DNA from: Branchiostoma floridae
Lineage: Eukaryota > Chordata > Leptocardii > Amphioxiformes > Branchiostomatidae
Direction of reading: 5' to 3'
DNA: 64,000 nucleotides
Assembly: GCF_000003815.2 (NCBI RefSeq)
Contig: NC_049985.1
Location: 25,829,104 to 25,893,103 of the forward strand
A model generated the notes under the pieces. The model saw only the letters and a list, made by a program, of their open reading frames with translations. It ran no database searches and was not told the DNA's origin. The first letter of the stretch is position 1. Every line of letters starts with the position of its first letter. The position numbers and the translations under genes are program-made. Positions 1,336 through 47,900 of this stretch are shown piece by piece.

Positions 1336-3229
1336 ACTAGAGTTCGGCGACCTCATACCTCCATGAAATATTGAGTGTTTTTGTCGATTTTATGCTTGTT
1401 GATGATGACTTGTATGTAATGATATTCGTGTTATTTCTACTAGTTGTGTGGATAGTTATCACATGGGCACTATGGTAACATGCAGCAGGTGTGGGGAATG
1501 ATGTTTATATTATCATGTTATGATAGTACTGGCAACTTGCAAGGTAGAGAGTATGTTTCAGAATCCATAACAAATTACTGCGACACATCAGGATACAAAC
1601 ACATCTTCAACACAAGCAATAAGACACAAAATGTCCATCAACCAATACCCACATATAGGTTACGGGGACAAGTTTATGCCAGATATATGATAATCCAAGT
1701 ACATACCAACATAACATCAGCGTAACGCCACGTGGAGCACGAAACATCTAACAGCATAAAAGAAGTATAACACACCAGGTCCCCAAAGGCACAAGTGGAT
1801 GAATACAAAGTTAATTATCATATTCAAATTGTCCAGGATCGGCAAACAGTTGCTCTAAGGAATCAACTGTTACAGATGCCCTAACCAGTTGCTATATGAC
1901 GTCAACTGTTCAGATAGGGTAATACCAAACACATCCACATAATATATATCTAATAAAACCGAGTACATACTAACAAAACTTCAAGCAAGGTGGACCACAT
2001 AACATCTAACAGCACAAAAGAAATATAATACAGCTTGTTCCTAAACGCACAAGTACATAAATACAATTTATTGTCACTTTCAAAATTGTCCTGGTTCCCC
2101 CCCAACAGATGCTCTACGATGTCAACTGTATATCGCAGATATAGGGGTGATTTCTGATATTATTACATCGATTATAACGACAGATACGGGTCCCATAATC
2201 TAATCACTTCCAGCAATCATCACACCCCACCAACACATCAAGTATGAAATCAATCCACCCAGCCGTTCTTCAGTGGAGGCTATCGTTTTCCCCAAACAGT
2301 TGTTGTCAACTGATCCAAAAAAACATATGTTCATGGCTATCACTGGCGAAACAAATCACCTCACCATCTGCTTGGAGATAAGGTGATTAACAAAGAGGGA
2401 AACCACGATGCCTGTTCCAATATATCGCAGATATAGGGGTGATTTCGTATATTATTACATCGATTATATCGACAGATACGAGGCCCAAAATCTAATCAAT
2501 TCCAGCTATCATCACACTCCACCAACACACTAAGTATGAAACCAATCCACCCAGCCGTTCTTGAGTCGAGGCTATCGTTTCCCCCCAACAGTTGTTGTCA
2601 ACTGATCCAAAAAAAAAACATATGTTCATGGCTATCACTGGCGAAACAAATCACCTCACCACCTGCTTGGAGATAAGGTGATTAACAAAGAAGGAAACCA
2701 CGATGCCTGTTCCAATATATCGCAGATATAGGGGTGATTTCTTATATTTTTACATCGATTATATCGACAGATACGAGGCCCAAAATCTAATCAATTCCAG
2801 CTTTCATCACATCCCACCAAAACAACAAGTATGAAACCAATCCACCCTGCCGTTCTTGAGTCGAGGCTATCGTTTCCCCCCAACAGTTGTTGTCAACTGA
2901 TCCAAAAAAACATATGTTCATGGCTATCACTGGCGAAACAAATCACCTCACCACCTGCTTGGAGATAAGGTGATTAACAAAGAGGGAAACCATGATGCCT
3001 GTTCCAATATAACGCAAATATAAGGGTGATTTCTGATATTATTACATCAATTATAACGATAGATACGGCTCCCAAAATCTCATCGATTCAAGCTTTCATC
3101 ACATCCCACCAAAACAACAAGTATGAAACCAATCCACCCAGCCGTTCTTGAGTAATCATCTACACAGACAGAGACACATAACAGAAAATATAACCTCCAT
3201 TCCATGACATTTCATGGAGGTAATAATTG
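1336..3229 (+). mobile_element. GAGTTCGGCGACC element, internally expanded copy
   Basis: Starts ACTAGAGTTCGGCGACCTC with CATACCTCCATGAAAT and ends CATTTCATGGAGGTAATAA, so the termini share an inverted CCTCCATGAAAT. It is about 1.9 kb against about 1.1 kb for the relative at 21418-22517. The extra length is four tandem ~290-bp units (next feature). No protein recognised. Confidence 0.55.
2126..3155 (+). repeat. Four tandem ~290-bp units inside the element
   Basis: Unit starts are marked by TATATCGCAGATATAGGGG at about 2130, 2422 and 2717, and a diverged TATAACGCAAATATAAGGG at about 3007. Each unit contains CAGTTGTTGTCAACTGATCC and CTGCTTGGAGATAAGGTG. The single-copy equivalent is at about 22298-22440. 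Confidence 0.8.
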
Positions 3230-4484: not shown

Positions 4485-5231
4485 TCACATACCCGTTGCC
4501 TTTCGACTTTCATAGAGCTGGTCTAACTCATCGTCTTGTCCTGGCAATGAAGAGGTCTTCACCGCTGTCCGTGTGGTCTTCGCTCCCTCCTTCCGTGGCG
4601 AGGACGGTTCCCTGTGTACTACAGCGTGAGTCGTGACGGTTGTTCTCTCTCTAACGTTGGACTGGGTATTCTCAGCCGGGCGTCCGTACGACTCTTGCCG
4701 CCCGGGCGCTGTTTCTTCCTTCCGTGGCGAGGACGGTTCCCTGTGTACTACAGCGTGAGTCGTGACGGTTGTTCTCTCTCTAACGTTGGACTGGGTATTC
4801 TCAGCCGGGCGTCCGTACGACTCTTGCCGCCCGGGCGCTGTTTTCCGCCGCCTGTTTTCTTCCTTCTGTGGCGAGGACGGTTCCCTGTGTACTACAGCGT
4901 GAGTCGTGACGGTTGTTCTCTCTCTAACGTTGGACTGGGTATTCTCAGGCGGGCGTCCGCATAACTCTTGCCGCCCGGGCGCTGTATTCCGCCGCCTGTT
5001 TTCTTCCTTCCGTGGCGAGGACGGTTCCCTGTGTACTACAGCGTGAGTCGTGATGGTTTTTCTCTCTCTAACGTTGGACTGGGTATCCTCAGCCGGGCGT
5101 CCGCACAACTCTTGCCGCCCGGGCGCTGTTTTCCGCCGCCTGACGGACTGCTTTTTCTTGGTCGGAGTAAAACCTTCCAAATAGCCGCTCATTTTTGGCC
5201 CCCTATCCATCGCATCTACGCTTTCAGTCAT
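4485..5231 (-). CDS. Unknown basic repeat protein, left copy (open, 248 codons)
   Basis: Minus-strand open frame starting MTESVDAMDRGPKMSGYLEG. It then has four tandem ~48-residue units of the type TAPGRQELCGRP, NTQSNVRERTT, THAVVHREPSSPRKEENRRR (144-bp DNA units), then a unique tail ending DDELDQLYESRKATG. The final codons abut a GTATGT donor (about 4492), so this may be the first coding exon of a spliced gene. No further exon could be identified on this side. Rich in Arg, Lys, Glu, Ser and Pro with no hydrophobic segment, so probably disordered. No family recognised. The same unit structure occurs in inverted orientation at 10614-11680. Could be a host gene or a transposon-borne frame. Confidence 0.45.
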   Translation of the reverse strand: MTESVDAMDRGPKMSGYLEGFTPTKKKQSVRRRKTAPGRQELCGRPAEDTQSNVRERKTITTHAVVHREPSSPRKEENRRRNTAPGRQELCGRPPENTQSNVRERTTVTTHAVVHREPSSPQKEENRRRKTAPGRQESYGRPAENTQSNVRERTTVTTHAVVHREPSSPRKEETAPGRQESYGRPAENTQSNVRERTTVTTHAVVHREPSSPRKEGAKTTRTAVKTSSLPGQDDELDQLYESRKATGM

Positions 5232-10244: not shown

Positions 10245-11798
10245 CAAATATTCCATCTACAACTTTGACTCGTCCTGTTCTTAAACAAAGTATAACAAAA
10301 ACACGGCATCTTTTACGAAGGCAACTGACCACCAACTCTTTGATGAATATTTCCCCCTCCCTGCATAATCGCAACCGTTAGTAATGCAGACCAATTAAGT
10401 TCGGAGGAAATACCTTAATCGTTTCTCGTCAGCAGCTTATTAAAAAAAAAACGTGGTTCGGAATTTCCTCCATGGCAACAGCTTCAAAATAACCCCTAAC
10501 GGCGAGGTTTTGTCATTTTTGTTCAAGGACCTAGGCTCGGAGAGAAACAACACCTCATTTGAAAGGAGTTGACGTGTCAGAAACCATGTCATGTGAGAGA
10601 CAATACGGGCGAAATGACCGAAAACATAGATGCGATGGATAGGGGGACAAAAATGAGCGGTGATTTGGAAGGTTTCACTCCGGCCAAGAAAAAGCAGTCC
10701 GTCAGGCGGCGGAAAACAGCGCCCGGGCGGCAAGAGTTGTACGGACGTCCGCCTGAGGATACCCAGTCCAACGTTAGAGAGAGAAAAACCATCACGACTC
10801 ACGCTGTAGTACACAAGGAACCGTCCTCGCCACGGAAGGAAGAAAACAGGCGGCGGAAAACAGCTAGCGCCCGGGCGGCAAGAGTTGTACGGACGTCCGC
10901 CTGAGGATACCCGGTCCAACGTTAGAGAGAGAACAACCATCACGACTCACGCAGTAGTACACAAGGGACCGTCCTCGCCACGGAAGGAAGAAAACAGGCG
11001 GCGGAAAACAGCTAGCGCCCGGGCGGCAAGAGTTGTACGGACGTCCGCCTGAGGATACCCAGTCCAACATTAGAGAGAGAACAACCGTCACGACTCACGC
11101 TGTAGTACACAAGGAACCGTCCTCGCCACGGAAGGAAGAAAACAGGCGGCGGAAAACAGCTAGCGCCCGGGCGGCAAGAGTTGTACGGACGCCCGGCTGA
11201 GAATACCCAGTCCAACGTTAGAGAGAGAACAACCATCACGACTCACGCAGTAGTACACAAGGAACCGTCCTCGCCACGGAAGGAAGAAAACAGGCGGCGG
11301 AAAACAGCTAGCGCCCGGGCGGCAAGAGTTGTACGGACGTCCGCCTGAGGATACCCGGTCCAACGTTAGAGAGAGAACAACCATCACGACTCACGCAGTA
11401 GTACACAAGGGACCGTCCTCGCCACGGAAGGAAGAAAACAGGCGGCGGAAAACAGCGCCCGGGCGGCAAGAGTTGTACGGACGCCCGCCTGAGGATACCC
11501 GGTCCAACGTTAGAGAGAGAGAACAACCATCACGACTCACACTGTAGTACACAAGGAACCGTCCTCGCCACGGAAGGAGGGAGTGAAGACCACGCAGGTA
11601 GCGGTGAAGACCTCTTCGTCACCACGTCAAGACGATGAGTTAGACCAGCTCTACGATAGTCGAAAGGCAACGGGTATGTGGATTTTTTTTTGTACCCCAA
11701 CAACATGACTAGTGATTGGGAATAAAATGTAGTCGGTCGTACATAAATCCGATATGAAGAGACCTATTCAATAGTCGGGTACGTATTGCAATCTGGCC

Positions 11799-14117: not shown

Positions 14118-14152
14118 TTTGGTCGCGCCATTACCTATCCTTGATATTTCAG

Positions 14153-16584
14153 TGTCTCGGCCCGCTGTGGTTCGACCGAAGGAACGAACACCTCATCCGG
14201 CCAATGCACCCTGCCGCCCGCCGGACCCGCTGTACGTCAGACGGGTGGGACAGAGGTTCTGGTCCACAAAACGGATCCTCGACTGGCAGAGACAGGCACT
14301 GCGTGCAAGGCCAAGGGAAGATCCAGGCGCAGTTTTGAAGCCTGTTATAGAATATGGCGAGGACGCTGTCCTTGACTATGCCGGAAACGGAGAAGCTGAA
14401 TTCCCAAACCATGACAACACGAATTATGAGAACAATAGGGAGCACGCGCACTACGAGAACGATAGAGAACATGCACAAAACAGGAACAATAGAGGACAGT
14501 CACACGCACATTACGAAAATGATAGAGGACACGTGCACTACGAGAATGATAGAGAACACGCACATAACAGGAACGATAGAGAACACGCACATTACGAGAA
14601 CGATAGAGAACACGCACAAAACAGGAACAATAGAGGACAGTCACACACACATTACGAAAATGATAGAGGACACGTGCACTACGAGAACGATAGAGAACAC
14701 TCACACAACAGGAACGATAGAGGACACACACATTACGAGAATGATAGAGGACACAAGCACTACGAGAATGATAGAGGACACGCACATAACAGGAACGATA
14801 GAGAACACGCACATTACGAGAACGATAGAGAACACGCACTTTACGAGAACGATAGAGAACACGCACATTACGAGAACGATAGAGAACACAAATATTACCA
14901 GTACGATAAAAATCACGCACATTACGAGAATGATAGTGAACACAAATATTACCAGTACGATAAAAACCACGCACATTACGAGAATGATAGAGAACACAAA
15001 TATTACCAGTACGATAAAAATCACACACATTACGAGAATGATAGAGAACACAAATATTACCAGTACGATAAAAATCACGCACATTACGAGAACGATAGAG
15101 AACACGCACACAATTACGAGAACGATAGAGAACACGCACATAATTACGAGAACGATAGAGAACACGCACACAATTACGAGAACGATAGAGAACACGCACA
15201 TGATTACGAGAATGATAGAGAACACGCACATAATTACGAGAACGATAGAGAACACACACATAATTACGAGAACGATAGAGAACACGAACATCATTACGAG
15301 AATGATGACGAACAGTCCAATCTATCAACCCACGTTTATGCTGATTTAGACCCTGACTTTCTGGCAGCTCAAGACGCGATCCGAAATGCCTCTGCTCAGC
15401 CGTTCTATGAGATGGACATCTCCCCCGCTGATGATGAACAAGAACAACCATTTTACAAGATGGACGTCACCACTGCCAAAGACAAGCTACAAGAAGAGCA
15501 GCCCTTTTACGAGATGGATGTTGTCTCAGCAGCCGATGGTGACAAAGAAGAACAGCCTTTTTACCAGATGGACGACACTCGACTGGACAAGTCAGCCTCA
15601 TCAAGTAACGTGTACGCCGATTTGGATCCCGAGTTTGTCGCCGCTCAAGATGAAGCTTGTAGGAGACACCGGGTCAGGGAACAGAACAGAGGTGAGTTAT
15701 AAGTTAGAACACGATACCAAGTGCGCACATATAATTTAGTTTAAGGCCATTCTTTGTCTATTGTATCTGCCAGGGCCTTATAGGACCTTTCACTCCCCCT
15801 CCACCCCCTAACTAGTACCTTGACCATGCATGACAGCCATCTTCGATACCGAAGGACTACCCAGAAGACTACAATGTACATTTATGCAATTTGAACTGGC
15901 TTATAGTTTCATACCAGTGCCATTCACATAACTATAAGTTTCCTAAGGTTGGTACACAAATTATAATGCAGTTACTTACTGCACAACCAAAGGCATTCAC
16001 CTGGCACATTTTAGGAATTCATTCTACCAGTTTCTTTCATGTCTCTAGGACAATGCTAATTGATTCTACTCTACCCTGAGGACGGTAGCACATTGATATA
16101 AACGCTGGAGTCCTACAATCATCCCTGTCTGTCTGTGTTGCTTCACAGGAGCTGATAATGACGACACGAGGTGCAGTCAGAACTGCCGCGTATTCTCCAG
16201 GTCCCGTCTAGGGTGCGTGGTGGCTGTCTGCGTTGGTGTCATCTTTGCCGCTATTGCGACAACTGCGGTCAGCGTAGTCTTTAACCGCTCTGACGACTTG
16301 GTAAGGTTTCCCATTTATATCAGCTGTCATTCATTCATATCACTCTGTCTTTCTTTCTTTCTTTCTTTCTCTGTGCTTCTGTATATACCACCCTCTGTCT
16401 CACACATTCACTCAATGTAAATACACGATCACACACATGAGCACATAAACAAATATGAACACACACACACGATCTACAAGCACGCACACACACACACGAA
16501 CACACACACACGAACACACACACACTCGAACACACATATTCACATACACGCACGTATGCACACACACACACACTAACACACACA

Positions 16585-16616
<32 letters not shown>

Positions 16617-18644
16617 TACACACAAACACACGCACATGCACAAACATACACACACAAACACACAGACACACACACACATACACACAAACACACACACACA
16701 AACACGCACATACACACGTGACACAGACACACACAGACACACACATACACACCTCAAGTGAATGACTCTTCTCATTGTCATCATGACATGAGGCAAATGA
16801 TTCTATTGTGTTTGTCACCAGATGAGCCAGAAAACACTTCCAACGACCGCGACAATGACGTCACTACAACTGCCGGTCACAACACCGACTACATCATCAT
16901 CCTCGCCGCATACACCGACTACAGAGGGAACAGGTAAGCATGAACAGAATGTTTTGTACGAATAAAAGTTTAACGTTACTTTGAGAATTTGCACAGCAGT
17001 AATAGAGCGTTCTCACATGACGTCACCGCTGTGCTCATCGCCATGTTGATGTCCCTATTTGAATTTCAGTGAATCATAGCTCTGGTGTTTTAGGATAATT
17101 GCTTTTCTGGAACTCTTCATTGCAAATACCACTGTCATATCTCTACACAAAAAAAGAAAATATCAGAAGGATGGTTGCAGATAAAACAAAAGATGTGTGT
17201 ATTTTCTAAAGTAACTGTTAGCACTGTTAGTCTTTTCAGTCCGATGTCAACTTTGCCCGTGTGATGATAGTCTGAAGCTAGCACTTTTCATTTCTAACAG
17301 GTTGTCCGGAGTTGATACGCTGTCCGGAGCTACAATGTGGCTTGTAGCATACGAGGTTGCATGTTGCTACATGTGTTTAATGAATAATGACACTGCCCCC
17401 CCTCCCCCTCCTCATATACCAGTAACGTACTTGCCTGCTGGCATGCCGGAATCAAAATGCATGGCTCGGAGTTTGGATTGAGGATGAATATTGATTGTGG
17501 TTGTACAGTTCTCCTACGCAGATTCGAACCATAGATGAGAGAACGTGGGTTCGTCTCTGTGTATAGTAGAATGAGGTTGTAAGAAAAGTATTCCCCTCCT
17601 TTTCTTGCAGATTGGCAAACCGAGTGGGCCTTGTACATCAGAGAGTACTTTGGAGAAAACAGCGATGGCGCCACAGCCCTGGAGGAACGTTATGCTGGAA
17701 ACGATGTCGTGATGTCCCTGTTACAAGACAGGTACTTCTGGCCCTGGGTGTGTCGGTACTGGGCTCTGGACAGGAGTCTCCCATGCACCTTAGCCCAGGC
17801 TGTTGCCTTCTGCGTCAATACTGGTACTTCAAACGAGTACATGGCGTCACATGGCTTCTCAGCGTACAGTGAGTTCTTTTCCATCGTGCGTAACGCCTTG
17901 GAGGCACTGCAGAACGTGACAACAAGCACAGGTAGTGAGCTAATATGTATTCCCGCTGTGTTATCCCTACCATCTAAACACACTCTGTCAGATAATGATG
18001 TTACGGCTCTGGTTACCCTTTTCCCATATCTGGAAGGTACGGGAACGCTCTTGATGGTGAACTGCAACATTTCAGCAAAGGCGGCAACATCAATGGCTGA
18101 ACATCTTCACCACCTGAGGACTCTGACACATATTTCTCTTCAAAACAATAAGATTGGAGACGATGGCGTCAGAGCGATTGCAGAGAAATTTTCCCACCTG
18201 AAAAAACTGAGAGCTCTAGACATTACAAACAATGAGATAACCGAGGTGGGAGGAGAAGCCATGGCAAAGAGTTTGGTTCACCTGCAGGAGCTACAGAAAC
18301 TCTTCTTGTCGGACATCGCGCTGGCTCTCAGTCTCTCCTCACTGGCAAAGGCTTTTGTCAACATGTCGAGACTGGAGCATGTCAAGTTTGACGTGACGTG
18401 TAGAGCCGCGTCATTCCGCATGGCGGCGCAACAAGCACGTGCCGCCGTCCACACGATTGCAGGACAGGTCAATCGCAGGGCCGGTCGCACTACGTATACC
18501 CTGTACGACGGTTCTCGTGCAGGCGACACGCAGGAACTGGCATGGCAACGAGTCAAACAGGAACTGCAAACGGGAAAATTGTTACAGATTTTAAGGGGAC
18601 GGTTGTCAGTGTCTTTACGAATCAGGTCGTTGCTATTAACGTAA
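14153..18644 (+). CDS. Type II membrane protein: Tyr-motif array tail, TM, Ser/Thr stalk, LRR ectodomain (5' end missing)
   Basis: Four exons in consistent phase: 14153-15691, 16149-16300, 16822-16933, 17611-18644 (TGA). Exon 1 shown is not the first: it opens after a TTGATATTTCAG acceptor with no early Met, so one or more upstream exons are unidentified. It encodes a Pro/Arg-rich start, the YENDREH-type array (14420-15315) and a block of VYADLDP and PFYxMD motifs. The next exon gives basic FSRSRLG then one hydrophobic span (GCVVAVCVGVIFAAIATTAV). The third is a Thr/Ser/Pro stalk (LPVTTPTTSSSSPHTPTT), likely O-glycosylated. The last has an unrecognised ~110-residue Trp/Cys-containing domain (EWALYIREYFGENSDG), then about four ribonuclease-inhibitor-type LRRs (LTHISLQNNKIGDDGVRAIA, LRALDITNNEITEVGGEAMA). 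Arginines before the span and the stalk after it argue for N-in, C-out. Lancelet type II C-type lectins have a similar build (from memory). Function unknown; a receptor role is inference. Confidence 0.75.
14420..15315 (+). repeat. Coding minisatellite (27-33 bp units) encoding 23 Tyr-Glu-Asn motifs
   Basis: Tandem units of the form TACGAGAACGATAGAGAA plus a short His codon spacer. Translated in the gene frame they give 23 YEN motifs (mostly YENDREH or YENDRGH) spaced by HAH, HTH, HVH or HAHN. Interspersed are NRNDREH units (Tyr to Arg), NRNNRGQSH units and four KYYQYDKNH units. The last seven units are regular 33-mers with NYENDREHAH. The frame stays open through all units, which argues for selection on the protein. 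Alternative-frame and antisense open frames over the same DNA are by-products of the repeat. Confidence 0.85.
16440..16755. repeat. CA microsatellite in receptor intron
   Basis: Imperfect (CA)n of about 300 bp in the intron between the TM and stalk exons. The long Cys/Val open frames on the minus strand are artefacts. Confidence 0.9.
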
Positions 18645-32900: not shown

Positions 32901-35900
32901 ATCTTTAACCTTCCAAAAATCTTGAAATGTTGCGCTGAACAAAGACGAAAACATCGAGGTCACATGCTACACACACAGTCGCTTACTTCCGTAAATTCTC
33001 TATCAAAACACAGAAATTAACCACCAACCAAACAAATTAAAAAGTTACCAATACTTTTCCACTATTTTTCATCCGTAGTCAACTTGTTTTAATGTTCCAG
33101 CAACGAAAAAATCATTCCAAAACAAAGCATAGCGTTCAATCGGCTCGAAAAGATCCGCCATGTTGGATTCATCAACTCACGCCGAATCTCGCGGTAATGT
33201 GCGAGAGAATCATATATTTTCTGCAGTACCGGTATTTCTCGATAGGGGGCAGTGTCTATGACCTTGGTTTCTGCAACATTGAAAATATCACAAGTGGTGA
33301 ATAAGGTATTCTAAGTTGGAATGTTTCTTCAAAATGTTATTTTGTAACAATGGTTATAAAATAAACTTCTCTTTTTATTTCTTCAATTTTTATTTTCATT
33401 CATTTTTTTACTTTTATTTTAATCTTTGTTGATGGTGTGACACTCAGATAAAGAAAATATGTGCAATAACATAGGAATTATTCTGTTCATTATTTATACA
33501 ATTAAATGATATGGTAATAAAAAAAATAAAAAATAAAAAATAACTGATATGCTACTGAGGCATAAATAAATAAAAAGAGCCTACCTGCTTATCATCTTCT
33601 CTTGGACTGAAGTAGCATGGGCACAGTTTACATGTCAATTTGGTATTTTTCCGGGGGGTACTTTTATTCCAGGGGGTACTTTTATTAGATTTTGAAGATT
33701 TGTCCGGGGGGTACTTTTATTCCAGGGGGTACTTCTATTTGAGAGGTGAGAGTACTTGGTTTAACTTTTTTTAGGTACAGGTGCAGGTCCGGACCTGTAC
33801 CTAAACCTGTGTACCTGTACCTGTACCTGAAATTTGTTCAGGTACACAGCCCTACACCACACTTCACAAAAATAGTAGGCCTGGATCCTTCCCGGTGTGA
33901 GAGGATCAGTTAAATCTGTCAGGTCATATATGCAGCTTGTACTCTTTAGACTTTTAAATTCAAGTTCAGTACAAACCTGGTGTGTTACACCATAACTTCG
34001 GGTATGTAATACAAACAAACAAATATCATTTTCTCCCTTGCATCGCAAAGGTAAATTCCCACAAACATTTCTAGCGTGCCATAACTTATAGAACTGTTTT
34101 CCAACCCTTCCTGCAGTTGAAGAGTAGTAAAGAGATGGTTCAACAGGTTCAAGAGCTTCAGGCGGAGCTCCACCATGCAGACATTTCCCCATTTACGGTA
34201 TCTCACGACTTATAGAACTGTTTTCCAACCCTTCCTGCAGTTGAAGAGTAGTAAAGAGATGGTTCAACAGGTTCAAGAGCTTCAGGCGGAGCTCCACCCT
34301 GCAAACATTTCCCCATTTACGGTGTCTCACGACTTATAGAACTGTTTTCCCAACCCTATCTGCAGTTGAAGAGTAGTAAAGAGATGGTGCAACAGGTTCA
34401 AGAGCTTCAGGCGGAGCTCCACCCTGCAAACATTTCCCCATTTACGGTATCTCACGACTTATAGAACTGTTTTCGCACCCTTCCTGCAGTTGAAGAGTAG
34501 TAAAGAGATGGTGCAACAGGTTCAAGAGCTTCAGGCGGAGCTCCACCCTGCAAACATTTCCCCATTTACGGTGTCTCACGACTTATAGAACTGTTTTCCC
34601 AACCCTTTCTGCAGTTGAAGAGTAGTAAAGAGATGGTGCAACAGGTTCAAGAGCTTCAGGCGGAGCTCCACCATGCAGACATTTCCCCATTTACGGTATC
34701 TCACGACTTATAGAACTGTTTTCCCAACCCTTGCTGCAGTTGAAGAGTAGTAAAGAGATGGTGCAACAGGTTCAAGAGCTTCAGGCGGAGCTCCACCGTG
34801 CAGACCAGCATGCACAGTCCCTGCAGGAGTCCCTGGCTGCCAAGGACAGGGAGCTGGTCCACATGCAGCAGGAGAAGGCCCATGTGCTGGAGCAGGCTCG
34901 GTACACCCAGGAGAGACTCCGGGAGACAGAGGAGGAGCTAAGGGAGACCATGCACAGCAGTGGGGGTAAGGAACTGATCATCAGTTCATACTAGGTTCTC
35001 CTGTTAAGCTCACAGTATTACACTGTCTTACCACTGTTGAACATACACTGTGATTTATACACTGTGATTTGTATCCCTTTGCTGTGATTTGTATATACCC
35101 TATGCTGTAGTTTGTGTCCCCTATGCTGTGATTTGTATCCCCTACACTGTGATTTGTATCCCCTACATTGGGATTTGTATCCCCTATGCTGTGATTTGTA
35201 TCCCCTACATTGTGATTTGTATCCCCTACATTGTGATTTGTATCCCCTACATTGTGATTTGTATCCCCTACATTTTGATTTGTATCCCCTATGCTGTGAT
35301 TTGTATCCCCTACATTGTGATTTGTATCCCCTACATTGTGATTTGTATCCCCTACATTGTGATTTGTATCCCCTACATTTTGATTTGTATCCCCTATGCT
35401 GTGATTTGTATCCCCTACATTGTGATTTGTATCCCCTACATTTTGATTTGTATCCCCTATGCTGTGATTTGTATCCCCTACATTGTGATTTGTATCCCCT
35501 ACATTGTGATTTGCATCCCCTACGCTGTGATTTGTATCCCCTACGCTGTGATTTGCATCCCCTACACTGATTTGTATCCCCTATGCTGTGATTTGTATCC
35601 CCTATGCCGTGATTTGGACCCCAATGCTACATGTTTCAACCAGTGTAAAGGGCTTTTATGTTATTTTGTAACAGAGATTAAAAAATGTTGGCTTTCATTA
35701 AATTTGGCACTCAATAGGAGGGCAATCTGACTTGCCGGAGGGCTGGGAACAAGTGTGATGCAGAATGCGCTGTGTTCTATTTTTTTGATGTCAATGTGCC
35801 AGATGTTGAGAAAATTTGTTGTCCTCTAACCAAAAATGGTAGCAACGGCAGTTCCAATATGCAAATCCTGTATTCGAATTTCGACCACTCCACACTCAGT

Positions 35901-38900
35901 GTGTTCAGTTTATTAGATGGAAGTGTTATCAAAGTACTAACCCCATGTGACACACAAGTTATCGCCTGGTCAAGAACACCCGTATTGAACGTTATCACAG
36001 CCTATAGTATGACATAGATAAGTAGATGAATGTGATATCATAATTTATGACTGTAATGAGACCTGTTACAGTAATTCAGTAATTCCATTTATCAATTGGT
36101 TACTGGAGTTGTTCCTCTTGCCCACAGTTGAGTCCATGGCCCTTGGTGAGTCCCTAGGAGGTATAATGGATAAGCATGCCCAGCAGCTGGAACAGGAGCT
36201 GGCCCTGTTACGGGACACATGGACCAGCCCGGAGGAGGCTGCCAAACAGGAGGTAAGGGTTTAAACCTCTTTCTGTTTCCACATCTCCATACAAAAACTC
36301 TGTTGGTCTGGGCCAACTTTTCACTGGCCCAAAATTTGAATGACTGTTCTTTGTATTTTTACTTGCAGCAAGGAATTTATCCTTTTTGTTTCTTGACAGC
36401 TGTTTCTTGTTTTGTGACTTGACAATTTGTGTGGATGTCAAGTGGCATGAACAATTTTCACTTTTACTTGCCCGAACCAGCTTTTTTCTTTCCTAAAATT
36501 CAAATGACAATCATTCTTTTAGTATGTATATTCACTTCCAGCAATGTAATTCTTTCATTATTGGCAATATTTCCCTGTGTTGATCAATGCTTGATGCCTT
36601 GACTAAACAATAACAAGAATCAAAATATCACTAATTGAAAAAAATCTTACTTGGACTTGTCCAACCCTAGTATTGCCTTAAGGAAGATGATTGTTGGTCA
36701 CTGAAATTTCGGTTGTAATGCGAACTTTGTATTCATATTGATACAGATGTCCCTTCCCGTTTCTCTCCTCCATAGGAGAAACACAGAACGGACATTCATC
36801 AGCTCCAGCAGGACCTTCAGAATCTCCAGAATGAAGCCGCGATGGAGAAGGAAGCTCTCCAGTCCAAGCTGGGTGCGGTCTGCGCAGCCAAGACCGCCAT
36901 GGGTGTGACGCTAGAGAACGAGCGCTGGACCTTCCAAGCCAAGAAGGATGCTTACAGGGAGGAGATTCTAGAGATTGGGAGGAAGTTTGAAGGTAGCAAA
37001 CAGAGGATAGCGCAGCTTGAAGAGGAGAATAGCGTCATCATGGCAATGATGCAGGATGAAAAGGATGCTCTCCATCGTCAACTAGAAGAGATGTCCGCTG
37101 CGGCAGAACAGAAGTGCCTGCAGTTGAACGACCAGCTTAGCCTCCTACAGGAAGAAAAGGCGGCCGTCGTGGCCAACCTTGAGGGCTTCACAGCCAGGAT
37201 GGAAACAAAGGTAGCGGGGCTAGAGAAAGAACTGGAACAAACAGCCCACGACAAAACTGCTGCGGAGAGCACGCTTCGCGTTACTACAGAGCAGCTGACC
37301 GCTGTAGAAAGGGAGAAAGCAGCAGTAATGTCGGAGCTGGAGCAGGTCAAGGCTCAGAAAGACAAGGAGAAAGGGCAGCTGCAGGATCGACTGGTGGCCA
37401 TGGCAACTGAGAACTCCGCCCTATCCGCAGAGCTGGAGAGTAAAGGAAAGCTGTGCCTCACCCTGGAGGCTGAGAAGTCCATGCTAGCGGATGCCATCGG
37501 GAAGCTCGGTGCGTCATCGGAGAAGGAGAAGAACGAACTCCAAACCCTTGTGGATGGTCTCAACACCGAGCGGGACGGTCTGTTGGACCAATTAGAGGTC
37601 ACAAACAGGGAGAAGGAAGACCTACAACGGCAGAACGCAGACCTCCGCACCGAAGTCGACAGCTACACGCAGGACAAGGGAGGCGTCATGCAGAAATTAA
37701 CCGAGGTAGCTGCATCGAATGCCGAGCTGAAGGCAAAGTTGCAACATAGCCGTTTAGACTCCATCAGCGATTGCCTAGACATCCTCATATCCTCCCAGGA
37801 GGATTCCATGGACAGTGTCCGACAAGAGCATGCGGAGCTCTGCATGGAAAACAGGGAACTCCTCAAGAAAACGGAAGAGCTGAAGAAGCTCCTAGAAGAA
37901 AACTCAGACCAGCTCCACCTCGTGACGGAAGAAAAAGAAGTCAAGATCTTGAACCTGGAGTTGGAAGTGCGGGATCTGCAGTGTTCTCGGGACAAAGCGC
38001 AGCAGGAAACGTGGTCGCTGCAAGCCGAGATCTCCCAGATGGAGAGAGCTGCTGAAGTCCTGAAAGAGCAACATGCACAATTGCAGCAGTTAGAGTCAAA
38101 CAGTCAAGAACAACTGGAGAAGGTAATAAATAAGGAAAGCAGGGCTCAAAATTAATTTTTGGGATAGAGTGCACTGGTGCACCCAGCAAAATTTTTGGGT
38201 GCACCACATGAAATAAAGTATGTAGAATGTGAGAAAAGCTAATTACAAAACTTAATTACAAGCTATTAAATTTTTGTACCATGACAGACATTTTATTATC
38301 TTTCTCACACTTGGATGTCAAGAATATGATGTATACTAGTATACTTTGCGTGCGTCAACATTAGAAAATGTTTTTAAAAAATTGGGGGCACAGTTCCAAT
38401 TTAGGGTGCACCAGGGTGCGCAAACACCCAGTATTTCGAGCCCTGGAAAGGAATGGAAATTCAGTTGTATGACTTATTTTTGTTGCCATAAAATGGAGGG
38501 TATTCCCTCAAAATTAACACCAATTTTTTATATGTCAGGCGGCAGGCATGCAGACGGAGCTTCAGTTTATCCAGGATAGACTGGTTCTTAGTGAAACTGC
38601 AAAGAACAGGGTAAGACAAAGGAACAGAACAATATGGTATTCAGTACAATCCAGGGTTGAACAAGTTTTCTAAAATCCCATTGTCCTACCGGGCAAGCAC
38701 ATAATAAATGTACTTGCCCGAACCAATTTTTCACTTGCCCAAAATTCAAATGTCACTGTTACTAGTATATGCATTTTCACTTCAAGCAATGGAATTCTCT
38801 GTAGACAATTGCTTGATGTCATGACTGTAAAAAGTAACAAGTATATCAAAATTGCACTAAAATCAATGGAAAAATCTTACTTGCCCGATCGGACAAGTGG

Positions 38901-41900: not shown

Positions 41901-44900
41901 NNNNNNNNNNNNNNNNNNNNNNNNNNNNNNNNNNNNNNNNNNNNNNCACATTGCTTGATCACCTGTTGGTGTCTTCCACATATTATAAGATTTTTGCCAC
42001 TGTTTTAAAAGAAATTACTTTATCAGAAATTACTTTATCAGAAAACATACATGAAATTTACCATGAAAGTGATGCTATATACTATAGTGTACCTTGAGTA
42101 AAGTTGCAGAAGTGACTAAAGTGTGGTAGTCTTCGGTGAAGTTAACATTGTAGAAGTACAGAAGTAGGCTTGAGTGTAGTTGGTAATGAGTTAGTAGGTT
42201 TGCATTAATACCGAATAAAATCATTGTTTATCAAAAAAATTATTGCTGTTTCATACATCTTAGCATCGTTTGAGTTTGGATCGGAGTTTCTCTTAGGAGA
42301 AATCCCGATCGCAATCTATACTAGGAGAATCGCCGATTCTACTAGTACAGATTGCGATCGGGATCTGTTTCTTATATCTATCGTAGTTTCTCCTAGGAGA
42401 AACTCCGATCGCGATCTCTCCTAGGAGGATCGGCGATTCTCCTGGATCGTGATCTCCACTGTGACATATCCATAGCAATTAGGGCTGGATACTGGTTCGG
42501 CCGGACCGGTTTTTACCGGTACAACATCCGAGAACCGAGTCCAAAAAACCGAAAGTCATGAACCGGTTTTTTGGACCAGAAGGCTGAACAATTTCAAGAA
42601 ATATATTGTACTTAGACATCCTAGTAGTACTCCGGCCATGGAATGGTGAAATAGCCCTGAATCAAACTAACTTAGCCTACAATAAATTCATATTCATCCC
42701 TTTGTGTACCTGTCAGCTCCATTTTTGGTCAACAATGACAATGTGCTACGAAAAAACATCAAATTTTTGCCACGGCATGAGGCCGACCGACGTACTGGAA
42801 TCGTGGAAAATTCCTCAATTATTCTGGTAAATGTTCATCCAAACTGAAGAATCTGCACCCAGAAAAAATTACCATGGGACAAACAACATTTCTTTCTTCT
42901 TCTGCACGTGTATTCAATCCATTTTTCCAGCTTTGAGGCGATTTGTGTGGTCTTGCAGGAAGAAATTTTAGCGCTCTGCGAAACAGACGGGCCACCATCT
43001 TGGATTCTACCCAAAACATATCGGATTCTCGCCAGTTCTCGCCTCAAGTCTCCCGAGAATGCAGTGTAAGCTTGCTCGCTAGATGGCGTTGTTTGATTTG
43101 CTGCAATGCGATTAGCTGCAAATTAAGCCAATATTTTGTGCTTTCGCGCCATTTTCGACAGAAGAGAACTTCTGAGGAGAGGGAAGTCATGCCAAAGCAG
43201 AAAAAAAGCAAAGTTTGCAGTGAATTATGTGTAGTATGTTCTCCAAATAAATATAAAACTGCTTTCAATCTTCTCTCTGCTTGTTAGTCACTGACAAAAA
43301 GGCATAAAAAGTACACTAATCTGAATATCGGTTTAATAAACTTTATTTAACTTAAGATTACAAAGTAAGATATCAACTATAGAGGATCAGGTTCAGGTCC
43401 GGACCTGAACCTAAACCTCTGGACTCGGACCTGGACTCGAACCTAATCAAGCCAAAAGGTATCCAGCCCTAATAGCAATAGTATCTGAATTTTACAGTAC
43501 TTTACATTGTTTAAAAGACAGAGAGTTCGTGGATAAAGGTTAGATATCCAGGTAATAACTAATGAAATGAGCCAAGTAGCATGCAATAACTCAAGCTACA
43601 GGATATATGGTTCTAAAACTAATTGTCATTAGCAACTGCTATTTGGCAAAGTCTTTTGTTGGAAGACAACTCAATGATTTTAGAAAGGGCTCAACTCACT
43701 GAAATGAAGTATATTTGTATACTGATTATTGTCTTGTAATATGATTTCAGAGTCAGCTGGAAGTGAACAGAATGGAGAAAGAAGCAGCACAACAGCAGCT
43801 TGTCATGGTACAGTCAGCGTTAGACCAGGCAGAAGCTGGCAAGGCAGACCTCAGGGGACAGCTCTCTACAGCCCAACAGCACCTGGAGGAAAGTACAGCT
43901 GGTAGTCAAGAGCTTCAGAGACAACTTGAGACAGCACAGGTACAGCTAGAGGAGAGGAAAACTGCCAATGATGACCTTCAGAGCCACATAAGTACAGCAC
44001 AGGAACAGCTCGAGTCTGCCAGGGCCAACTTCCAGTGTCAGCTCCAAAGTGTACAAGGACAGCTGAAGCAGGCTGAAGCTGCTAGGAGTGACCTTCAAAG
44101 CCAGCTACAGACAGCTCAAGAACAGCTTCATAAGAAGGATACTATACAAGGTGAACTCCAGAACCAGCTGCAGACAGCACTGACCAGTCTACAGGAAAGC
44201 AAAGATAGCAGATGTGACCTTCAAAGCCAGCTAAAGACAGCTCAAGAACAGCTTCATAAGAAGGATACTATACAAGGTGAACTCCAGAACCATCTTCAGA
44301 CAGCACTGGCCAGTCTACAAGAAAGCAAAGATGCCAGATGTAACCTTCAAAGTCAGCTACAAACAGCCCAAGAACAGCTTCATCAAAAGGATGCTGCACA
44401 AGGTAAGCTCCAGAGCCAGCTGCAGACAGCACAGGCAAGTCTACAGGAAAGCAAAGATGCCAGGTGTGACCTTCAAAGCCAGCTTCAGACAGCTCAAGAA
44501 CAGCTTGGGCAAAGAGATGCTGCACAAGCCGAGCTCCAGAACCAGCTACAGACAGCATTGGCAAGTCTACAGGAAAGCAAAGATTCCAGATGTGACCTTC
44601 AAAGTCAGCTTCAACAGAAGGAAGCTGCCCAAAGTGACCTCCATAATCAGCTACAGACAGCAGTGGCAAACCAACGAGAAATTGAAGTTGCCAGGAACAG
44701 CCTTCAAAGTCAGCTGCAGACAGCACAAGAGCAGCTTCAACAGAAGCATTCTGCCCAGACTGACCTACAAGTTCAACTAGAGACAGCAGTTGCAAACCAA
44801 CAACTGCTTGAAGCTGCCAGGAACAGCCTTCAAAGTGAGCTGCAGACAGCACAGGAGCAGCTTCAACAGAAGCATTCTGCCCAGACTGACCTACAAGTTC

Positions 44901-47900
44901 AACTAGAGACAGCAGTTGCAAACCAACAACTGCTTGAAGCTGCCAGGAACAGCCTTCAAAGTGAGCTGCAGACAGCACAGGAGCAGCTTCAACAGAAGAA
45001 TGCTGCCCAGACTGACCTACAAGCTCAACTCGAGACAGCAGTGGCAAACCATCAACTGCTTGAAGCTGCCATGAACAACCTTCAAGGTCAACTGCAGACA
45101 GCACAGGAGCAGCTTCAGCAGAAGAATGCTGCCCAGACTGACCTACAAGCTCAACTCGAGACAGCAGTGGCAAACCAACAACTGCTTGAAGCTGCCAGGA
45201 ACAACCTTCAAGGTCAGCTGCAGACAGCACAGGAGCAGCTTCAACAGAAGAATGCTGCCCAGACTGACCTACAAGCTCAACTCGAGACAGCAGTGGCAAA
45301 CCATCAACTGCTTGAAGCTGCCAGGAACAACCTTCAAGGTCAACTGCAGACAGCGCAGGACCAGCTTGAACAGAAGAATGCTACCCAGACTGACCTACAA
45401 GTTCAACTTGAGACAGCAGTGGCAAACCATCAACTCCTTGAAGCTGCCAGGAACAGTTTTCAATGTCAGCTGCAGACTGCACAGGAAGAGCTTCAACAGA
45501 AGGATACAGAAATGAGCAGTCTCCACAGCCAGCTAGAAACAGCACAGGGACAGCTGAAGGAGACTGAAACTGCTCGAAACATCCTTCAGACACAGCTTGA
45601 GCAGACGGAGGCAGGGAGGAACGACCTCCAGACCCAGGTGGACCTGGTGCAGGCTCAGTACCTACAGAACCAGACCAGCTCTGATGAGGCTGTTGCTGAA
45701 CTCCGAGTCCAGGCAGCACACTTCGAACAGGAGTGCTCCCAGCTACAGGGGGAAAAACAGCAGCTGCTCAAGCAGTGGGAGGAGATGATGGCGTACAAGG
45801 TAATGTGGCATGTCTCTGATATGATTAGCATCCACCAGGCCTTTACTATTGGGGTAGGGGAATCATAGAATTTGGCATAAAATCAGGAAATTGGTCAGTT
45901 CACGCTAAGATAAATGTTTCACCTCTGGCCAACTCCTCTGGTAGCGAAACTCCTATTATTCTCCATATAAAGCATAGTCAGTCTGGTAGATAATCTTCAA
46001 ATTAAGCAGTCTTCTCAAAATACTTCATGTCTGTTTCGACTGTGAATCAGATTTTGGTTAAAAAATCTTATTTCCCTTGACAGCGTGTAACGCTAGGGTT
46101 GTTTGAAACACAGCATAGGGGTCCAGATCACAGCATAGAAATCTCAGTGTAGGGCCCCCTATGCTCAACTAAGCTGGCGAGAACCCTGTCCCCTCATCAA
46201 ATTCACATCAAATTCGCGACAGCGTCTAACGCTAGGGACAGTTGGTTTCGTCTAGGGTCGGTTGAGTAACTGGAGACAAGACAAAAGTTTTTCCCAGGCC
46301 TAACATCTTGCTGTCCCTCCGACAGGTACAGGTGGAACAGCAGCACAGCACCTTGAAGAGGGAGCTGGGTGAGGCAGCTGCGTGCTGTCAGCGGCTGGAG
46401 GCCAGCAATGCAACACTGTGTGCACAGCAGCAGGAGATGCTCGCTAAAGAAAACAGTTACAGACAACAGGTATATTTAAACTCTTTACTAGGCCGTAGAT
46501 GGCAATTGTTTGATTGGGTTTTATGCTAGCTGTTAAAGAGTGGAGTATGAATAGATAAAAACAGTGTATATGCCTCTTGTACACTGAAGTACAAACTAGG
46601 GCTGTGTACCTAAACATCAGTTACAGGTCCAGACCTTTACGTGTGTGCCCAAACCGGAACCTGCAAAAAATCCCTCCCCACCCGAAAGATCTTTTACGCT
46701 GTCCCTGAGTGTCACTTTGGCCACGTTTTTGTCGCATGAGGTTCTGAGGTAAAAATTAAACTAAAACATTTTAATTTCAAAGATGGCTCTGATTTCAAGT
46801 ATCAGCGCAGCATTTTAGGTCTTGTGCTAATTTTTTGTCTCCGTGGTAGGGTTTTATCATGTTCAGCAAAAAAAAAGTAATGCTTTATATTCATTTAATT
46901 TGGTACCGTACAGCACTGGTACTTTAATGATCTGGTATTTTGGACCTGTACCAATACCAAACAAACTTGTTGTGTTATGCCAAGAGCGGTTTACCAGGTT
47001 TGCAACTTACAAACAAAAGAAATAGTTGAAGGTACATTTACTGAATTTTGCTACCCTTGTCCCAGGTGGAGACAATGCAGCACCACATCGAGGAACAGCT
47101 AAGAGGTGTCAATGAGCTGCAAGGTGCACTGGAGGAGACTCAGAGCCAGAAGAAGTTGCTGGAGGAACATCTTCAACAGTAAGAGTCTATTTCTTTATCT
47201 GTACACATTCTAACTGCTGGCAGTAGTGAATGGTTTGTATAATGGGGCTATAGAATATGGAAGAATACAATTCTGATAATGACTATCTTACAAAATAACT
47301 GCACAGCTAATGGCGTATTTTTAATGTTAAAAACTGGTATGTTGATGTGATGGTGAAAATGATATAGTGGAGCAGTACCGTATATTCTCGAATAAAGTAC
47401 GCACCCCAATTAAAGTACGCACCCCTGATTTTGGACAAGTCTTAGACAAATCTTTGGGACTGAAAGGTAAAATGGAAAAACTCAAATAAAGTACGCACCC
47501 CTTCTCCTCCAGTTTTGAACAGACCTTTAACTAAATAAATTCGAATTTATGATGTTTTCCCCAGGTCATTTTGCATAAAATAACCTGGGTTTACACTGTC
47601 ATTGTCTTTATAAATTGCCTGCTGCAAATTATAAAAATCACGGAGAACTGGTAGAAGAAATCAGGCAAAACCAGTTGTACAAGTCAAAGTCACTAACTCA
47701 AAAGGATTGTATGCAAATGCCACTGTTAATATGTAAATCATGTTAAGACAATTTCTTTGTTTCATGTTTAGACAACTTCAAGACAACAACAATGTGTATG
47801 TTTTGAAACATTACTAGAAGTGTAGCTCCACCTTGCTTTATTTTAGGCTTTTCTTACCATTTATCTGTGCAGTAACCTCAAATAAAGTACGCACCCCAAC

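Follow-up and report, generated by a model that had tools for sequence, protein, structure and literature searches.

LAT-like transmembrane adaptors carry a very short ectodomain, and the substrate domain of p130Cas is a soluble disordered scaffold with tandem short tyrosine motifs. Among established tyrosine motifs, the ITIM consensus reads [ISVL]xYxx[ILV] and the ITAM consensus YxxL/I-x(6-12)-YxxL/I. LAT binds Grb2 via three YxNx sites, and the valence of this binding matters (PMC3291652). The conserved Grb2 core in the immunoglobulin tail motif is likewise given as YxN in PMC4263166. BbLcLRR from Branchiostoma belcheri is an Lck-associated LRR receptor that is phosphorylated by Lck on cytosolic tyrosines (PMC8211107), and lancelet Grb2 co-precipitates another LRR protein (PMC10199209).

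Here, we analyzed a stretch of 64,000 nucleotides from Branchiostoma floridae (the window). An earlier note on this DNA had described 23 Tyr-Glu-Asn (YEN) motifs in one exon and read them as a potential pTyr-x-Asn docking array on the cytosolic side of a membrane protein with an LRR ectodomain. We find that the window gene comprises five exons, whose predicted product is a type II membrane protein. These exons, the array and one exon of a sister gene (L009) are:

10614 to 11673, plus strand: exon 1, with a Met start, six tandem 'KTAPGRQELYGRPPEDTQSNVRER..' units and a phase-1 donor GTATGT; frame-broken here, with open homologous exons in sister genes
14153 to 15691, plus strand: exon 2, made of head, array and tail, with phase 1 on either side; a further 15 loci carry a homologous exon
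14425 to 15303, plus strand: tandem array of 23 YEN motifs, predicted to be disordered (from repeat finding and structure prediction)
16149 to 16300, plus strand: exon 3, basic juxtamembrane sequence CRVFSRSR and transmembrane (TM) segment LGCVVAVCVGVIFAAIATTAVSVVF
16822 to 16933, plus strand: exon 4, stalk rich in Ser/Thr/Pro
17611 to 18644, plus strand: exon 5, the last, with a helical stretch and ribonuclease-inhibitor/NLR-type (RI/NLR-type) LRRs; stop codon at 18642-18644
4493 to 5231, minus strand: intact exon 1 of sister gene L009, with four tandem units and no hydrophobic N-terminus

Exon 2 is bounded by an acceptor at 14150-14152 and a donor directly after 15691. It consists of a conserved head (i.e., VSxPA.VRPKE..DPLYVRRVGQRFWSTKRILDWQRQALRA), an array built from three kinds of unit (i.e., YEND, NRND and YYQYDKN) and a conserved tail in the order VYADLDP, four PFYxMD motifs and again VYADLDP. 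The TM, stalk and LRR exons are present downstream of the array, as the earlier note had it; the TM segment and the stalk occupy the two short exons 3 and 4. The LRR exon is predicted to be well folded (pLDDT 88) and matches NLR proteins, ribonuclease inhibitor and RanGAP, being of the RI/NLR type in both sequence and fold. Pfam scans of exon 2, the LRR exon and a sister exon 1 revealed no NACHT domain. A possible short alternative exon around 17301, which would fall between the stalk and LRR exons, was rejected by eye, as it runs into a stop within a few codons. Elsewhere on the plus strand of the window, long Gln/Glu-rich, coiled-coil-like open frames occupy 36776-38155 and 43745-45868, the latter with an in-frame 126-bp tandem repeat; both gave nothing above the Pfam cut-offs. 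Moreover, a 21-bp minisatellite of ~27 copies lies at 35058-35616, with several frames open, and a 292-bp tandem repeat at 2129-3153 falls, by its position, into intron 1 of L009.

The 23 YEN motifs were confirmed in a single frame (14425-15303). Shuffling the exon 2000 times yielded 0.54 such motifs on average and four at most; as the array units are tandem copies, the 23 are not independent events. Consecutive YEN motifs are spaced by 9, 10, 18 or 20 residues, which gives units of 9 or 10 residues instead of the ~10-11 proposed before, and TRF detected periods of 27 and 54 bp. Five NRN units and four Y-x-YDKN units are interspersed. The exon encodes 60 His residues and 24 HxH motifs, has no Pfam match and is predicted to be disordered (pLDDT 35.4). 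Its frame is open over 545 codons from stop to stop, in agreement with the earlier note. As a sign of selection, this openness does not hold up: three of the six frames are free of stops over 14420-15315, so that the open array frame alone is weak evidence, and we discarded it as proof of selection.

We searched the lancelet's own genome with the end of exon 2 as a query. The array-exon family counts at least 16 loci, that of the window gene included, on contigs C1, C2, C4, C5, C7, C9 and C10; scoring covered 150 of the 166 candidates, which makes this count a minimum. The weak matches L024 and L025 (on C8 and C14; 32% and 30% identity) were dropped, as they matched none of head, tail, TM or LRR. 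A tree of 14 loci splits into two clades with five rows (clade A) and nine rows (clade B), at a support of 100/100. L014 and L020 were left out of the tree and the head count, and L014 also out of the unit and tail counts because its exon-2 DNA is identical to that of L013. These two loci (C10, at 774 kb and 868 kb) differ in their LRR exons, one of which has an early stop; their identical exon 2 points to a recent duplication, a conversion or a duplicated haplotype.

The exons located around the 16 loci share a common order and phase pattern. The TM exon is readable at 15 of the 16, with only a fragment at L010. The LRR exon is complete to its usual end at 11 loci (the L019 copy was found in the L015 region), truncated by a stop at four (L013, L015, L018 and L023) and missing from the DNA examined around L010, which contains 545 N. 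Some members of the family are thus either in decay or badly assembled. Two spliced models combine canonical sites with the absence of internal stops, L009 with 1133 aa and 17 YxN sites in exon 2, and L017 with 872 aa and 11 such sites; L016 was excluded owing to the non-canonical acceptor of its TM exon. Unit numbers range from 4 to 25, aside from L012, whose array is a single unit cut by an assembly gap. Leaving aside the gapped L012, each of the other four clade A arrays has 11-23 YxN sites, and the ten clade B arrays counted have 3-12. The array frame is open at 14 of the 16 loci, in both clades; L012 has stops and the gap, and L020 is partly masked.

Comparison with these paralogues also located the 5' exon that the earlier note had been missing, at 10614-11673. 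Exon 1 follows one plan, i.e., Met, a short lead, TAPGRQELYGRP-type units (in clade A), a conserved end (e.g., DDELDQLYxSRKAT) and a phase-1 donor. It is open in every clade A locus other than the window gene (L009, L010, L011 and L012). The clade A units number 12 in L010, six in the window gene, four in L009, three in L012 and one in L011. This tandem repeat is thus expanded in four of the five loci and is unrelated to the YEND array. In most clade A loci the units carry a repeated YGRP, a YxxP sequence, whose Tyr is changed to Cys in one of the 12 units of L010, in two of the four of L009 and in the single unit of L011. Across the family, an exon 1 of this type occurs at 14 of the 16 loci and was absent from the DNA examined around L014 and L022; at L015 an Ile aligns with the usual Met, and the L020 frame is short. 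Exons 2-5 of L009 lie outside the window, around C7:25826112-25826678.

In the window gene itself, four of the six exon 1 units contain an extra CTAG (4 bp), and the frame runs for 96 codons from Met to the first of eight stops. As CTAG is common to four units, the frameshift was seemingly multiplied through tandem duplication. By eye, another small insert is visible in unit six. With its exon 1 broken, the window copy is probably a non-functional recent pseudogene or null allele, and a working gene at this position is not supported; an assembly error may be the source of the break. This copy thus cautions against taking a frame kept open by stop-free repeat units as evidence of function, and the family is of more interest than the window copy.

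We then compared the segments of the family for signs of constraint. Pooled pN/pS amounted to 0.30-0.44 for the head, 0.23-0.38 for the tail and 0.49-0.64 for the LRR exon; the window head gave a dN/dS of 1.07 against L010 and 1.25 against L011, from only four and nine changes, respectively. All six aligned Tyr columns of the tail (two in VYADLDP, four in PFYxMD) are unchanged in each of the 15 distinct paralogues, four of these columns showing synonymous TAC/TAT variation, and the six Phe columns are invariant as well. The array comparison covered 182 units, drawn from 15 arrays. Position 0 is Tyr in 157 (absent in 25) and position +2 is Asn in 179, where the detection threshold of 4 of 6 core matches biases every core position alike towards conservation. 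Changes between units were counted on a minimum spanning tree, with the ts/tv ratio taken from 26 intron alignments. This first test gave ratios of 0.86 for Tyr (P=0.51), i.e., near neutral, 0.11 for Asn(+2) (P=0.003), 0.23 for His(+6) (P=0.038) and 0.25 for Asp (P=0.081), these being nominal P values from seven positions with 7-14 events per codon. With ts/tv obtained from the units themselves the ratios rise, and a direct comparison of Tyr with Asn yielded a Fisher P of 0.08. A second test used 13 pairwise alignments of arrays, which are uncertain for repeats and non-independent as pairs; here the residue was changed in 26% of columns for Tyr, 27% for Asn and 15% for His, with nonsynonymous/synonymous values of 2.5, 1.8 and 1.3, leaving room for mild constraint on Tyr. 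Judging from these comparisons, the array tyrosines appear to be weakly kept at best and the tail tyrosines strictly. The earlier note had named freely degenerating Tyr codons as speaking against its array; this is partly what we observe, between paralogues rather than between alleles.

On which side of the membrane the array lies was judged from the spliced models and from charges. The sister models examined contain neither a signal peptide nor a hydrophobic N-terminus, and on this basis we rejected the upstream signal peptide that would have placed the array outside. L009 and L017 have one strong hydrophobic segment each, and the stalk following it consists of 43-46% Ser/Thr in three models. 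The Met start of exon 1 together with the lack of a signal peptide favors a cytosolic array, in line with the cytosolic N-terminus proposed earlier. The basic residues that the earlier note saw before the span are clear in clade A, where the N-terminal flank carries +3 or +4 and the C-terminal flank 0 or -1 (four of four loci tested, window included), but weak in clade B, which is mostly positive on both sides. Using equal-length, exon-joined flanks at 11 of 14 loci, the N-terminal side was more positive at nine with 15 residues (L017 equal, L015 reversed) and at seven with 10 residues (three equal, one reversed). Sequons, which occur both in exon 2 and in the LRR, count against this side assignment. 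The reverse topology, with the array outside and the LRR cytosolic as in NLR proteins, draws on the fact that RI/NLR-type LRRs are usually cytosolic and on the ambiguous charges of clade B, with L015 more positive on the C-terminal side; against the missing hydrophobic N-terminus, the consistent charge difference in clade A and the Ser/Thr/Pro stalk on the LRR side, we consider it improbable. The exon order is established by sequence and comparison, and the orientation with a cytosolic array and the LRR outside is likely. The LRR part of the earlier claim is supported as well, by the RI/NLR-type matches and fold, and we regard the predicted type II layout as a whole, for which the orientation is inferred, as highly probable.

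With the array probably facing the cytosol, it might itself be the functional element, a dense pTyr-x-Asn lattice that would work as a longer LAT and recruit Grb2-type adaptors in numbers proportional to its units. YxN is the Grb2 SH2 core (PMC4263166 and PMC3291652), the YxN counts reach 11-23 in clade A and 3-12 in clade B, and lancelet Grb2 has served as a bait for receptors (PMC10199209). However, 25 of the 182 units lack the Tyr, its ratio is near neutral while those of Asn and His are constrained, Asn is retained without Tyr in the NRN units, and the second test allows mild constraint on Tyr only. We therefore rate such a lattice as rather unlikely. Of the earlier docking claim, the YxN motifs and the favored cytosolic side stand, whereas the Tyr losses and the Tyr ratio tell against it, and the claim of a 23-site Grb2 array in the window appears weakened. 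Its broader form, a receptor family whose putative cytosolic pTyr-x-Asn array grew by tandem duplication, so that adaptor valence differs per paralogue and perhaps per allele, seems quite unlikely to us. If it were true, the 3 to 23 sites, together with the YxxP array in exon 1 of one clade, would make up an evolvable LAT-like scaffold joined to an NLR-type LRR shown outside the cell. Selection could alternatively have acted on a His/Asp/Asn-rich repeat for metal- or pH-dependent binding, charge pattern or phase behavior, with Tyr being incidental. The abundance of His and HxH in the window exon, the strongest constraint falling on Asn(+2) and His(+6), and the changed fraction of His (0.15), the lowest among five residues in the aligned arrays, are consistent with this, but event counts are small for seven positions tested, the exon lacks a Pfam match and Tyr nonetheless occupies 157 of 182 first positions, which makes this account distinctly unlikely. 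Finally, the array could be a near-neutral tandem repeat, lengthened and shortened by slippage and tolerated as a disordered segment with a role in spacing only. Its unit number and composition vary widely, changes between units are 52 nonsynonymous to 25 synonymous, disorder is predicted, half of the frames are open anyway, and a second, unrelated repeat expanded in exon 1. Against this stand the constraint on Asn and His and the array frame, which both clades keep open (14 of the 16 loci), and we judge near-neutrality to be rather unlikely as well.

Our preferred reading, which we hold tentatively and at slightly less than even confidence, is a lineage-specific family of tyrosine-signaling LRR receptors with a repeat-expanded tail, in which the array would act as a floppy spacer. 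The array would form one portion of the N-terminal tail, on the cytosolic side, of single-pass type II receptors encoded by a multigene family. Their predicted layout is an exon-1 segment (present as tandem copies in most members of one clade), head, disordered YEND array, tyrosine tail, TM segment, Ser/Thr stalk and RI/NLR-type LRR ectodomain. Binding of a ligand to the faster-evolving ectodomain would cluster the receptors, tyrosine kinases of the Src/Syk kind would phosphorylate the invariant tail tyrosines (two in VYADLDP, four to five in PFYxMD), and these would recruit SH2 proteins. The array may serve as a disordered spacer, acidic and rich in His, that is able to expand and to contribute a variable number of YxN sites, which are not preserved individually. 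As judged by sequence conservation, the invariant tail tyrosines are better candidate signaling sites than those of the array. The tail motifs matched none of the SH2 consensus sequences tried. VY[AT]DL departs from the ITIM consensus, its -2 position being H, Q or N in 15 of 15 aligned tails, and the spacing of the two YxDL motifs, 89-108 residues at each of the 16 loci, exceeds that of an ITAM. Should the intact members prove to be surface receptors, they would combine an NLR/RNase-inhibitor-type LRR with a tyrosine-rich, repeat-expanded tail in type II order. We know of no described receptor of such layout, and the top literature matches listed, all under open licence, contained neither such a receptor nor a paper on this family. 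With YxN sites ranging from 3 to 23, the paralogues offer a natural series on which the effect of docking valence on signaling could be tested.

Comparison with the known systems shows which parts are shared. With NLR proteins, ribonuclease inhibitor and RanGAP the family has the type of LRR domain in common; it differs from NLR proteins in the absence of NACHT from the exons scanned, in its membrane anchor and in the predicted position of the LRR outside the cell. Its tandem, short and disordered tyrosine motifs, including the YGRP (YxxP) of the exon-1 units, resemble by description those of p130Cas, a soluble scaffold in contrast to the membrane-anchored window family. Like LAT, LAB and LAX, it has several YxN sites in a tail that is inferred to be cytosolic (23 YEN motifs in the window) and a putatively variable Grb2 valence (PMC3291652). 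LAT, as described there, has three distal Grb2 sites, whereas the window family has 3-23 repeated YxN motifs with putative Grb2 binding, in type II order. The short ectodomain of such adaptors has no counterpart here, as a 344-residue LRR exon and a stalk form a large part beyond the TM segment. BbLcLRR is likewise a lancelet membrane LRR protein with tyrosines, which are cytosolic, phosphorylated and active in signaling in its own case and are candidate signaling sites in ours. According to PMC8211107, BbLcLRR carries LRRNT, LRRs, WSC and LRRCT before its TM segment, and its cytosolic tail is C-terminal and contains ITIM-like motifs, whereas the window family combines a predicted type II order with an RI/NLR-type LRR and an N-terminal tail of tandem repeats.
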